Origin: Thomasclavelia ramosa DSM 1402
GTDB taxonomy: Bacteria > Bacillota_I > Bacilli_A > Erysipelotrichales > Coprobacillaceae
Assembly: GCF_014131695.1 (NCBI RefSeq)
Contig: NZ_CP036346.1
Span: forward strand, 2,852,001 to 2,916,000
DNA length: 64,000 nt
Reading direction: 5' to 3'
Shown here: piece after piece, positions 27,494 through 33,262 of the stretch
Numbering within the stretch: the first letter of the stretch is position 1
Layout: each line of letters opens with the position of its first letter
The notes under the pieces: generated by a model
What the model saw: only the letters and a program-made list of their open reading frames with translations
Told to the model about the DNA's origin: nothing
Database searches by the model: none
Program-made: the position numbers and the translations under genes

Positions 27494-28942
27494 TTATAAT
27501 TCTTCACCATTAGTTTCAATTACTTTTTTATACCAATAGTATGAATCTTTCTTATAACGATTTAAAGTACCGCTATTTTCATCTTCTTCACGATCAACGT
27601 AAACAAAACCATAACGCTTTTGATATCCATTTAACCAGCTTAATAAATCTGTATATGACCATGTACAATAAGCAAGAACACGGCATCCATCATCACAAGC
27701 CTTCTTCAATTCCTCAATATGTGCTTTTAAATAAGCAATTCGATATGGGTCATGTACTTCCCCATCTTCTAACTTATCAAAAGCTCCTAAACCATTTTCA
27801 CTAATAACAATTGGTAAATCATAGCGTGATGTAATTTCACGACAACACATTCTAATTCCCATTGGATCAATTGTCCAATCCCAATCAGTTGTTGGAAGAT
27901 TAGCATTTTGAGGATTTTTATAAAGTCCTGGTACACCTTGAACTTTAGCAGTACCTTTTTTACCAGTCGTATTCATTTCATGACTTGTTCCAACACCATC
28001 GATATCATTAAATTCAACTGTAGTTGTTTGATAGTAGTTAACTCCCATGAAATCAACTAATTGTGCAGCTTCTTTCATGATAGCATTGTCACCTTCTTCA
28101 AAAACAGGGGCAACACCATTAGCCTCTAAATAAGCAAGAGCAGCGCGAGGATAACGCCCATAAGCATAAACATCCATCCAATAATAATTCTTCAAATCAT
28201 CATAATCTGCTTTAGCCATTGCATTTTCTGGTTTATTGTCAATTGCATAAGATGGACTATAAGCAAAACTTGCTCCAACTTTCGCTTCTGGCCATAATTC
28301 TTTTAATGCAATTACACTTTTAGCATGTGCCATATTTGCATGATGATTAACTTGATAGAACATTTTCATATCATCTACTTTCCCTGGGGGATGCATTCCT
28401 TCTAACCAGCCAAAGCTAGTAAAGATATTCTGTTCATTCATGGTGATCCAGTATTTAACACGATCACCATATCGTTTAAATAAAGTAGTTGCATAGTTTA
28501 CATAATCATCAACAATTTGACGATTTTCCCAACCATGATATTGCTCCTCTAAAGCTTGAGGCATATCCCAGTGATATACCGTAACCATTGGCTCAATTCC
28601 ATATTTTAAACATTCATTAATTAAATTATCATAGAATTGTAAACCAGCTTCATTAACCTCACCGTTTCCATTTGGATAAATTCTTGTCCAGGCAATTGAA
28701 AAACGATAAGTTTTTAGACCCATTTCTGCCATTAAAGCAACATCTTCTTTATAACGATTATAATGGTCTACAGCTTTATCACCTGTTGTTCCTTTGAAAG
28801 TTTTCCCAGGGATACGTACAAATTTATCCCAGTTGGAAACTCCCTTACCATCACTATCCCAAGCGCCTTCTACTTGATAGGCTGCCGACGCACTGCCCCA
28901 AAGAAAGTCACTTGGAAAGCCTTTACTGTCTTTAAAATACAT
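27494..28942 (-). CDS. GH1 phospho-beta-glycosidase (6-phospho-beta-galactosidase-like phosphate loop)
   Basis: A 482-residue GH1 enzyme. The acid/base E170 is in TMNEQN and the nucleophile E382 in SENGLG. The C-terminal loop [12 protein letters not shown] places S435, W436, K442 and Y444 in the same spacing as the phosphate-binding Ser-Trp-Lys-Tyr of lactococcal LacG, so a 6-phospho-glycoside is the likely substrate; the Trp is associated with galactosides but does not prove it. The ATG overlaps the end of the GGDEF gene by 11 bases and uses AGGAGG inside it, so it is the last gene of a coupled operon. Confidence 0.9.
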
Positions 28943-31151
28943 CTTTTTTCCTCCTATTTCCTTTTTTATTACGCTTATGGCAATACATCTCCCGATCTGC
29001 TTTATCTAAGAGTTCACGAACTGTTAAATCTTGATATTGATCAAAAAGACTAATTCCATAAGATAATTCTACTTTAAAATTACGTTTTATTAAAGTGTTA
29101 TGATAGATTGTTTTATCATTTATTAATTGATCAATTTCTGAAAGAGCAAAATCACTTTGATTTGGTAAAAATACTGCAAATTCATCACCGCCAATACGCC
29201 CAATTACACCAAATTCATCAAAAGCATCTTTAAGAATCTTAGCTCCCGTGATAATTGCTTCATCACCACCTTCATGACCATAAGTATCATTGATAATTTT
29301 TAAACCATCAAGATCCACAAAAATCAATGCACCTTTATTAATATTCATATATCCTTGTACTTTATCAATAAAACCTCGGCGATTCCATAGCCCCGTCAGC
29401 TCATCATGTTTTGATAAATTATCTAACTTCTCAACTAAATTGATCGTATTTACAACTGTTCCTAATTGACTAGAAACAAAATCTAAATCTACAAAATCAC
29501 GATATTTCAAATCACAAACAAATATTCCATACTGTGTTGTTCCAGAATAAACTGAGTTAACAACATATTCATTACAATTACTAAACAATCTCTTTTCTGA
29601 AAATATTCGATCGGTTTTAACCAGAATTTTATCATCAGGAATAATAATCTTACCATTAATTATACTTCCTTTCAAAATAACCTCATTGGGTAAAACTGTA
29701 AATTGTGTCATATAACTAGTAATTGGTTTTTCATACAAATATAATCTTGCATTACCAATATTCAGCTGCTTTAAACATTCAAAAATAGTATTGTAGTTAT
29801 CATACTCGTTTCGAACACTGAGCATTCCTCTTGATAAAATATTAACCAGCCGTTTCTCTTCACAAGAAATCCTTGTTCTTTCACTTAAAATAGTATTATA
29901 ATGCATGCCAATAATTTGTAGGATTTTTTGATTGAAATGAATAATTGATAGATTATTACGATAATCACTAAGACGCTGACTAACCACATCAATAACTTTT
30001 AAAATTCTTTTTAAATCAATAAACTCAACACTATCTAAATCTATTAATTCTTGAATTAAATTTGAAAATTTTGTATATGTTTTTTCTTCGAATAAGTCAT
30101 CATTATGAAGTTCAACTAGAAAAGTAACTAAATCAATTACGCGTTTGCGGGCTTCAATAATAAAAATACTGTGGTTATTATTAAAAATATACTCCATTAA
30201 AATATTAACGATTTTATCTTTGTCGCTCTTTGTATAATTAACTATTTGACGATATAATCGTTCTTCTAAATAACCCACTTTAGCAGCCGAATCTCGTTTA
30301 ATAAAATCTACATCGACAAGTGTTGTGAATTCAGCTGGAATTTCTCCTCGCAATGATAAAACCCCATCCATGACAGCATAAAATCCTAACTGTGCTGCTT
30401 CGGCACGGATAGTTGCTAGAGGCGGGTTTACTTTTGATGCTTCTTGAACATCATCAAAACCAACTACTTGAACATCTTCACCAATTCGAATCCCTCGTTC
30501 TTTTAAAACTTGATACGCATCAAAGGCAAGATTATCACTTGCACAAACAATAGCATCCAAATCAGGATTCAAATCCAATAATTTCTTGGCATATTCAGGA
30601 TAACCACGTTCAAATGTTGCTGTATGAATAATTCTTTTTTCGTCAATGACGATTCCGTGACTTTTTAATGTTTTTTTATATGCAGCTAATCGCTCATCCG
30701 ACCCTTTATTTTCATAAGGACCAGCAATCATCCCAATTTTACGACATTGCTGTTCTTGAATTAAACTAGTTACTGCATCCTCTATCCCTTTAGCATTATC
30801 AAATGTTACTAGTGAATTATTTCCAAATTTATGGTTTAAAGTAACAATTGGCACACCTTCAAATTCTTTTACGAATAATTCTTTTAAACGATTATTCCCA
30901 TGAACGATACTTGAGACACTTATAATTAATAAATCTAAATCTTTTGTCTTGGAAAATTTATAAGTTGTATTTTTTTGAAACTCATACCTTGAATTCCCGT
31001 AGATGTTTGAGCTTCCTACAAATCCACCAAAAAATACAACTAAATTAACATCCAATTTTCCAGCTGCATAACTCGCTCCCCGCCAAATTTCAGTAGTAAA
31101 GATATTATCGCTATCATCTACCAGCAAGCCAATTTTTAATTTATTGTCCAC
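28932..31151 (-). CDS. LacI-type sugar-binding sensor fused to GGDEF diguanylate cyclase
   Basis: A cytosolic protein of about 739 residues without membrane helices. Counted from the GTG at 31160, residues 8-290 form a LacI/GalR-type periplasmic-binding-protein fold ([53 protein letters not shown]), but the helix-turn-helix that normally precedes it is absent. A helical and possibly GAF-like middle (about 300-575) follows, then a GGDEF domain ([38 protein letters not shown] at 655-664). The inhibitory RxxD site is replaced by DEFG. The start is a GTG, at 31151 (GGTGG, 5-base spacing) or 31160. It probably makes c-di-GMP in response to a sugar. Confidence 0.88.
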
Positions 31152-32070: not shown

Positions 32071-33262
32071 TTTTACCATACTCCTTATAATTTTCCATTA
32101 ATAATCGATTGATGTTACTAACTTGTTCAAAAGAGCTTAGACGGTACTCGTCATGTTCCATTCTTCCTGCATAGAAACGAATGGCTTTTTCTAACTCTTC
32201 ACGAATTGGTTCACGATACTCTGGTGGGAAAGTAGAAATCGGGAAGCAAACAAAAACAAATGTATTATAATCTTTTGAAAATAAATTAATCAATAAATCA
32301 TATCCTTCGTTTTGTACGATTGAATTTCCGATAGCTAATTGTAAATCATGATTTGCAAAAGTCAGCATATCATTCATCACAAAACGAATAACATCCATAG
32401 CAGCATTACGATAACCATCAGCATCACTTTCAAAAATTGCTTTTAAATATGGAATGACGATGTTACTGTCACCCTCCTTTTGAAAACGAGCATCAACATA
32501 ATTAAAGATTGCTTTAGTAACCCGATAATGGGATAAAACCAAATTACCAAAATCTGTCATGATTGCAAAAGCAAAACGCTGTGAATTACATAAACGCCAA
32601 ATTGCTTCTAATAATGGTTCCTTAACTTGATCATAGAAAATATCCAAGTCATCAAAAACCATCCTAATAATGATTCTAAAATAATATAAATGATATTGAT
32701 ATTGGGTATCTAAATATTTAGCCGTCGTACCATCCCATTCATACTCATAAATAATTTTATCTAATAAAAGATTCAATGAATCCATAAATCGTTTATAATT
32801 ACCATTTCGTATCAACCTTTTTAAATAAGGCATAAAGAAATCATAAAACTCATCAATTGTCTCTTGATTAGTTCCACGATGATATTCTAAATAATCTAAA
32901 ATATTACGATAATCTAATGGTTCTAACATATTCTCTGTATTTTTACTATTTATATAATGTTGAAAAACATGACAATGTAAAATTGTTCGATATTTATTGA
33001 AATAAATTATTTGCTTTAAAGCATCCTTAGTAATATATTCCTCTTCCTGTTCATGAAGATCAACTGAAAATACTGTCTTCACTTCTGGTCCCGCATAATC
33101 TAAAGTTACAAAGACATTGATTTCTCTAAATTGCGTATCACGAATATAATAATGGAACTTATGTTCAAATTTTTTTGTTTGAACACAACTATGACAGCGG
33201 TACTTACCTTGATAATTACTCTTATGCTCTTCTAAATATTTGTGTATACACTCACGTGCCAT
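32063..33262 (-). CDS. Unrecognised 399-residue protein with N-terminal Cys/His cluster
   Basis: I do not recognise this family. The first 35 residues contain C5, H7, H13, C23, H24 and C26 (CIHKYLEEHK, KYRCHSC), a possible zinc site. Residues 35-75 look like beta-strands (HYYIRDTQFREINVFVTL). The remaining 300 residues are almost all amphipathic helix, rich in Tyr, Phe, Asp and Arg, like a helical-repeat scaffold. There is no signal peptide or membrane helix. It is the first gene of a four-gene operon with the pseudo-hydrolase, the LacI-GGDEF protein and the GH1 enzyme; AGGAGGTGAAG precedes its ATG. Confidence 0.8.
   Translation of the reverse strand: MARECIHKYLEEHKSNYQGKYRCHSCVQTKKFEHKFHYYIRDTQFREINVFVTLDYAGPEVKTVFSVDLHEQEEEYITKDALKQIIYFNKYRTILHCHVFQHYINSKNTENMLEPLDYRNILDYLEYHRGTNQETIDEFYDFFMPYLKRLIRNGNYKRFMDSLNLLLDKIIYEYEWDGTTAKYLDTQYQYHLYYFRIIIRMVFDDLDIFYDQVKEPLLEAIWRLCNSQRFAFAIMTDFGNLVLSHYRVTKAIFNYVDARFQKEGDSNIVIPYLKAIFESDADGYRNAAMDVIRFVMNDMLTFANHDLQLAIGNSIVQNEGYDLLINLFSKDYNTFVFVCFPISTFPPEYREPIREELEKAIRFYAGRMEHDEYRLSSFEQVSNINRLLMENYKEYGKNG

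Follow-up and report, generated by a model that had tools for sequence, protein, structure and literature searches.

In a 64,000-nucleotide stretch of the genome of Thomasclavelia ramosa DSM 1402 (contig NZ_CP036346.1, positions 2,852,001 to 2,916,000; the whole stretch is termed ‘the window’ here, and coordinates are window positions), four closely packed genes bring together a putative sugar-sensing diguanylate cyclase and an enzyme of the 6-phospho-beta-glycosidase type. The sensor is a protein in which a LacI-type effector domain is followed by a GGDEF domain (‘the fusion’); the enzyme belongs to glycoside hydrolase family 1 (GH1); and genes for a 399-residue orphan protein (A399) and an alpha/beta-hydrolase-fold protein (ABH) precede them. 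The reading that we prefer, and to which we would give a little less than an even chance, is that the fusion acts in the cytosol as a single-protein receptor, translating the level of a sugar or sugar phosphate inside the cell into cyclic di-GMP (c-di-GMP), and that it has been placed, probably repeatedly, in an A399-ABH-GH1 unit where the GH1 enzyme controls the level of the ligand. The pairing of a sugar-sensing cyclase with a phospho-glycosidase, put forward in a preliminary description of this DNA, draws sequence-based support from the domains, an intact cyclase core, a phospho-type GH1 and the gene arrangement, together with its recurrence in other lineages; what did not hold up is a fixed four-gene unit.

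According to the list of open reading frames (ORFs), the genes lie on the minus strand and run from 33262 to 27494 in the order A399, ABH, fusion, GH1:

32063..33262, minus strand: A399, a 399-residue orphan and the first gene of the unit, predicted to have an N-terminal alpha/beta part and then an all-helical part (ORF, AlphaFold2).
31165..32079, minus strand: ABH, 304 residues, alpha/beta-hydrolase fold without the nucleophile serine (ORF, Pfam, alignment).
28932..31160, minus strand: LacI-GGDEF fusion, 742 residues, with a LacI fold at about 1-293, a helical or GAF-like middle at 295-575 and GGDEF at 584-733 (ORF, Pfam).
27494..28942, minus strand: GH1, 482 residues, 6-phospho-beta-glycosidase type, resembling Gan1D/BlBglC (ORF, Pfam, residues).

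The A399 and ABH genes overlap by 17 bases, 4 bases separate ABH from the fusion, and the fusion and GH1 genes overlap by 11 bases, with AGGAGG directly upstream of GH1 inside the fusion gene. These spacings (-17, +4 and -11) agree with the earlier view of four coupled genes, and the overlaps suggest a single transcript for all of them. An alternative start for the fusion (GTG at 31151, behind GGTGG) is as good as the one at 31160.

The architecture of the fusion is as first described, a LacI fold and a GGDEF domain without a helix-turn-helix (HTH). Pfam places Peripla_BP_3 (E 2e-23) and Peripla_BP_1 (E 4e-17) at residues 8-291 and GGDEF (E 2e-30; PF00990, 106 bits against a cut-off of 23.8) at residues 584-733; no HTH family is among the Pfam matches, and the first strand of the binding fold begins at about residue 9. 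The GGDEF motif (G657-F661) and residues D616, N624 and D633, which presumably play the metal- and guanine-binding roles of their counterparts in PleD, are invariant in 11 of 11 homologues. On another account this domain forms no c-di-GMP in vivo but serves as a switch that binds GTP or c-di-GMP, which we think very improbable: the window’s fusion does lack the RxxD inhibitory site (I-site), a point in favour of such a switch, but the catalytic motif and core residues are kept throughout the homologues, and the I-site is an optional feature (present, as read by eye, in locus L115; labels beginning with G, L, and f or g denote genomes, loci, and families or genera of the comparison set), the absence of which does not imply loss of cyclase activity.

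In the effector domain, D121, R157 and D236 correspond to what we take to be the effector positions of PurR and LacI; R157 and D236 are nearly invariant among the homologues, and LacI-family effector-site positions are kept in most of them. The middle region (295-575) matches no Pfam family and is GAF-like by eye only, an identity that a profile search of PDB sequences did not confirm (best E 0.26). The structural model of the fusion is poor (predicted local distance difference test score, pLDDT, 58; built from only three sequences), and in a Foldseek search with it LacI-family chains rank first at low TM-scores. Because no membrane segment was seen by eye, the fusion is probably cytosolic. 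The domain matches and conserved residues support its description as a LacI-type effector domain that lacks an HTH and is linked to a GGDEF domain whose cyclase core is intact.

The identification of the fourth gene as a phospho-glycosidase has been borne out. Its GH1 domain (Pfam, E 2e-166) has Gan1D-type 6-phospho enzymes as its closest solved relatives (PDB 4ze4; E 4e-204). Both catalytic glutamates are present, in TMNEQN (TxNE) and ISENG (xENG). The ten-residue phosphate loop, S-W-x5-K-R-Y, follows the S-x6-K-x-Y pattern and is the same in the Gan1D alignment; we take its serine, lysine and tyrosine to have their usual roles there. Trp-433, next to the loop serine, is said in an excerpt of PMC10360150 to allow galactose 6-phosphate. 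These residues support an enzyme of the 6-phospho-beta-glycosidase type, with the tryptophan of the dual or galacto type.

GH1 is strongly conserved among relatives, with 85-91% identity to its counterparts in six genomes (G050, G074, G040, G034, G017 and G048), where A399 is 50-87% and ABH 42-81% identical; the most distant holders are G021 (79%) and G007 (71%). Recent horizontal gain was considered as an explanation for the 85-91% identity across genera, and is disfavoured because fourfold sites diverge about as much as in neighbouring genes. As a separate observation, in the same genomes GH1 evolves nearly as slowly as the alpha subunit of RNA polymerase (identified by eye), a pace that is unusual among catabolic glycosidases. 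In G011 and G067, which belong to a single genus, the place after A399-ABH is taken by a degenerate GH1 that has neither catalytic glutamate and no phosphate loop:

L123:5444-6472, minus strand: degenerate GH1, 343 residues, in the place after A399-ABH, frame open.
L152:3281-4195, plus strand: degenerate GH1, 304 residues, in the place after A399-ABH, frame open.

The two are 31% identical, with saturated synonymous sites, and may represent a conserved pseudo-glycosidase. A further candidate, a 961-residue protein in L144 with an apparent insert in GH1, was discarded, the insert being an assembly gap of N.

A399 has no Pfam family, and NCBIfam (at 1e-10) offers no family for it or for ABH; its AlphaFold2 model (pLDDT 79) has no fold match in the PDB at E<=0.001. 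A399 was found in 42 of the 43 family genomes, with one weak match in the 201 further genomes sampled from the order, and ABH orthologues adjoin it in the neighbourhoods read. ABH itself has only a weak Pfam match to Abhydrolase_1 (E 0.0025, below the cut-off) and a hydrophobic N-terminal segment (read by eye). Its earlier label of ‘pseudo-hydrolase’ is apt: at the nucleophile place (GxSxG), all 15 aligned homologues have E, G or N, and none has serine.

With presence defined over the 43 family genomes by E<=1e-200 for GH1 and E<=1e-25 for the fusion, GH1 is present in 28, and in 22 of these it lies, by coordinates, within the A399-ABH locus (20 directly after ABH, two after a fusion). The fusion is present in eight, and within the A399-ABH locus in three only: the window’s own genome (G000), G017 (a Candidatus Stoquefichus metagenome-assembled genome) and G076. 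G017 has the order ABH-fusion-GH1, its fusion being 35% identical to that of the window, and G076 has ABH-fusion, after which the contig ends before any GH1 could be seen. Two of the 31 named loci from a scan with A399 (some of them incomplete) carry the fusion, in the same two genomes. The four-gene order, for which the preliminary description proposed a search in relatives, was therefore rejected as a conserved unit on the strength of these three genomes in 43; what spans the family is A399-ABH, in many genomes joined by GH1. Outside this locus the fusion occurs in five family genomes, beside a BadF-type CoA-enzyme activase in G013 and G007, and next to or near a gene of activase-like size in G023, G011 and G067.

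Within the locus, ABH precedes the fusion in three of three cases and GH1 follows it in both that are readable. Because the tie to ABH is equally tight, A399-ABH remains a rival for the part of working partner: the fusion would supply local c-di-GMP to the membrane-anchored pseudo-hydrolase and A399, or be tuned by them, with GH1 merely the next gene of an old unit. The persistence of A399-ABH where GH1 has been lost or has decayed (the pseudo-GH1s of G011 and G067) fits this account. However, LacI-GGDEF genes also neighbour GH1 in family f2, where the one weak match is the sole trace of A399, and we regard A399-ABH as a quite unlikely partner.

The history of the junction bears on a further alternative. 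In the A399 and ABH trees the window groups with its genus, G076 with g11 and G017 with G048. In the fusion tree, the closest row to G076 is G102, and G102 and G163 are close kin from another family. The three fusions within the locus are rejected as a clade (p 4e-40), and so are groupings of the window with G076 (p 3e-28), with G017 (p 0.002) and with G076 and G102 together (p 0.004); for these three joined by the two f2 rows a clade is not rejected (p 0.49), and the groups tested were named after a first tree had been viewed. Since the fusion tree conflicts with those of A399 and ABH, the junction appears to have been reached or refilled more than once, either by repeated entry of the fusion gene or by horizontal replacement of an old copy there. 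Such mobility, together with the patchy presence of the fusion (eight of 43 genomes) and the unrelated genes that adjoin other LacI-GGDEF copies, speaks for a mobile gene that hitch-hiked into a well expressed operon and has a ligand unrelated to GH1. We consider this unlikely: three fusions that form no clade share one junction, with tight overlaps, phospho-type GH1 genes stand beside fusions in two other settings, and there synteny is kept at 44% fusion identity. On either history of the junction the place seems to matter, and chance landing there is the weaker account.

These other settings belong to a wider class, for LacI-GGDEF fusions with other middle parts are found across the sampled order. 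In G067, a phospho-type GH1 lies 469 bases upstream of another LacI-GGDEF gene on the same strand; in G117, G142 and G146 the distance is about 107 bases. Between the most distant two, G117 and G146, the fusions are 44% and the GH1s 81% identical, and the gene after the fusion encodes a solute-binding-protein-like product (70% identical between them). The GH1s beside these genes are 39-42% identical to that of the window and so belong to another subfamily. Other glycosidase genes adjoin fusions as well: in G192 the next gene is a GH3, truncated where the contig ends, and in G147 the fusion and a GH13 gene are divergently oriented.

A glycosidase is the immediate neighbour of the fusion at 8 of 28 loci, compared with 2 of the 33 other GGDEF ORFs of G000 (GH3 at L194, GH20 at L182; p 0.021); without the window the count is 7 of 27 (p 0.037), and by groups 5 of 18 (p 0.045). 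The 28 are the long-frame loci among the matches listed, plus loci from further scans; left out were G155, whose frame has no GGDEF, a second copy (G147:C35), a partial locus (G076:C64) and L167-L169, which are LacI regulators or have broken frames. Several loci that a contig end truncates on one side were counted unchanged. Neighbours of about 240 residues or more were scanned with Pfam, those in the fusion set being partly assigned by orthology: the GH1 neighbours of G017 and G142 were counted through 88% and 97% identity to scanned GH1s, and names such as TruA, RpoA, EcfA, HU and HisJ were given by eye. Fusion loci without a glycosidase adjoin truA-like, NUDIX, activase, flavodoxin-like, RnfD and other genes; they are many, and show that the class serves other inputs too. 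A broader proposal, which we think possible but doubtful, is that LacI-GGDEF proteins are a widespread class of one-protein receptors for intracellular sugar phosphates with c-di-GMP as their direct output, which gut Erysipelotrichales have recruited beside 6-phospho-beta-glycosidase genes at least three times, with differing GH1 subfamilies and gene orders.

Several observations weigh against a receptor functionally coupled to GH1. The fusion is absent from all eight congeners and from 35 of the 43 family genomes, and it does not regularly occur together with GH1: among its eight carriers, G000, G017 and G007 have a GH1 of at least 71% identity, G076 has one of 64%, and four have none. G007 holds both genes, apart from each other, and none of the five family carriers with the fusion outside the locus has a glycosidase beside it. 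The glycosidase enrichment, which looked strong at first, softened to a modest one as loci were added (7 of 20, p 0.010, becoming 8 of 28, p 0.021), and its control, the 33 GGDEF ORFs of a single genome, is not matched by genome. Finally, the ligand residues of the fusion give no pattern that favours a sugar over, for example, a purine.

Should the receptor reading be correct, the LacI-type effector domain would bind an intracellular sugar or sugar phosphate, and binding would act through the middle region on the C-terminal diguanylate cyclase activity. GH1 would determine how much of the likely ligand is present, whether this is a phospho-disaccharide or what is released from it (galactose 6-phosphate, glucose 6-phosphate or free sugar). 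Fold, residues and neighbourhood suggest this account, in which the nature of the ligand, the sign of control, the shared transcript and the output are inferred. The complete 3.25 Mb genome from which the window comes contains 39 GGDEF matches in 34 ORFs (33 besides the fusion) and 18 EAL matches (16 genes, a match below the cut-off that contains stops, and a second piece). The preliminary description had pointed to PilZ effectors; no PilZ match was found in this genome by a search that gave control matches in five genomes. Only one c-di-GMP-I riboswitch was found (C1:881747; L128:1501-3086), upstream of a long ORF that has a signal-peptide-like start and looks secreted, and whose first 448 residues match nothing in Pfam at 1e-5; the riboswitch may be an output of the system. 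No c-di-GMP-II riboswitch was found, but the control for that search matched nowhere, so absence is not established.

Downstream of GH1 lie two further features:

27470..27493, minus strand: weak terminator-like hairpin 3' of GH1 (hairpin scan).
26591..27427, minus strand: RpiR/SIS regulator, judged to be outside the unit (Pfam, neighbourhoods).

The single terminator proposed for the operon is thus present as a hairpin in the expected place, but a weak one (three G-C pairs), near shuffle level (five such sites in the region against a shuffle mean of 4.1). The RpiR regulator does lie just past it, as described; its membership of the system was rejected, since it keeps with the next gene (beta-eliminating-lyase-like) in five congeners without GH1. 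In three congeners (L095:8889-10991, L098:8976-11060 and L100:2472-4532), an ORF of 686-700 residues, with beta-helix and GH141-type matches in L095, stands between ABH and RpiR, where the window has GH1 and the fusion. A riboswitch or other Rfam element upstream of the unit was looked for and not found: none in the window other than rRNA reaches the gathering score, and the region 33000-33800 has only one sub-threshold match (E 0.38). ARAGORN found no tRNA in the window. Positions 53906-64000 hold two tandem minus-strand rRNA operons with 5680 bases between them, and the window ends within the second.

If the receptor reading is right, a cell could read the flux through its own phospho-glycosidase with one protein and report it as c-di-GMP, with neither a transcription factor nor a phosphotransferase system (PTS) relay. 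In a genome with 34 GGDEF ORFs and no PilZ match, a receptor with a guessable ligand would offer a handle on the c-di-GMP network, and the recurring pairings in relatives hint that sugar use may be tied directly to behaviour. Excerpts of the review PMC8846402 list, among the putative sensors on c-di-GMP proteins, the Periplas_BP domain found in LacI regulators, and describe SBP_bac_3 (arginine, RmcA) as the only studied member of the periplasmic-binding-protein (PBP) clan, which leaves the LacI-type sensor, so far as those excerpts go, without a studied example. The preliminary description knew of no described system with these parts, and searches of the open-access PMC literature found no LacI-GGDEF fusion with a phospho-glycosidase. 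Within that literature, the phospho-glycosidase in the operon and the recurrence of this arrangement appear to be new; the domain pairing is of a known, unstudied kind.

Among known systems (each compared here through excerpts of the source), the PBP-clan sensors on GGDEF, EAL and HD-GYP proteins (PMC8846402) share with the fusion a periplasmic-binding-protein-like sensor and a GGDEF output; in contrast to SBP_bac_3, its domain is of LacI type, apparently cytosolic, and encoded in an operon with a phospho-glycosidase. Gan1D and BlBglC, dual 6-phospho-beta-galactosidase/glucosidases (PMC10360150; PDB 4ze4), have in common with the window’s enzyme the GH1 family, the catalytic glutamate pair, the phosphate loop and the tryptophan by the loop serine; their operon context differs, and the activity of the window’s GH1 is predicted from its sequence. 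In Vibrio cholerae, EIIA-Glc and PdeS (PMC8846402) likewise let the state of sugar uptake set c-di-GMP, but by way of a phosphodiesterase and a partner that the PTS phosphorylates, rather than a ligand-binding domain fused to a cyclase. The Actinoplanes amlR-amlE-ACSP50_2473 operon (PMC6828939) similarly combines a LacI-type sensor, an intracellular glycosidase (a GH13 maltase) and a c-di-GMP enzyme; there, however, the sensor is a separate DNA-binding LacI repressor and the enzyme a membrane GGDEF-EAL protein, whereas in the window sensor and cyclase form one protein without an HTH.

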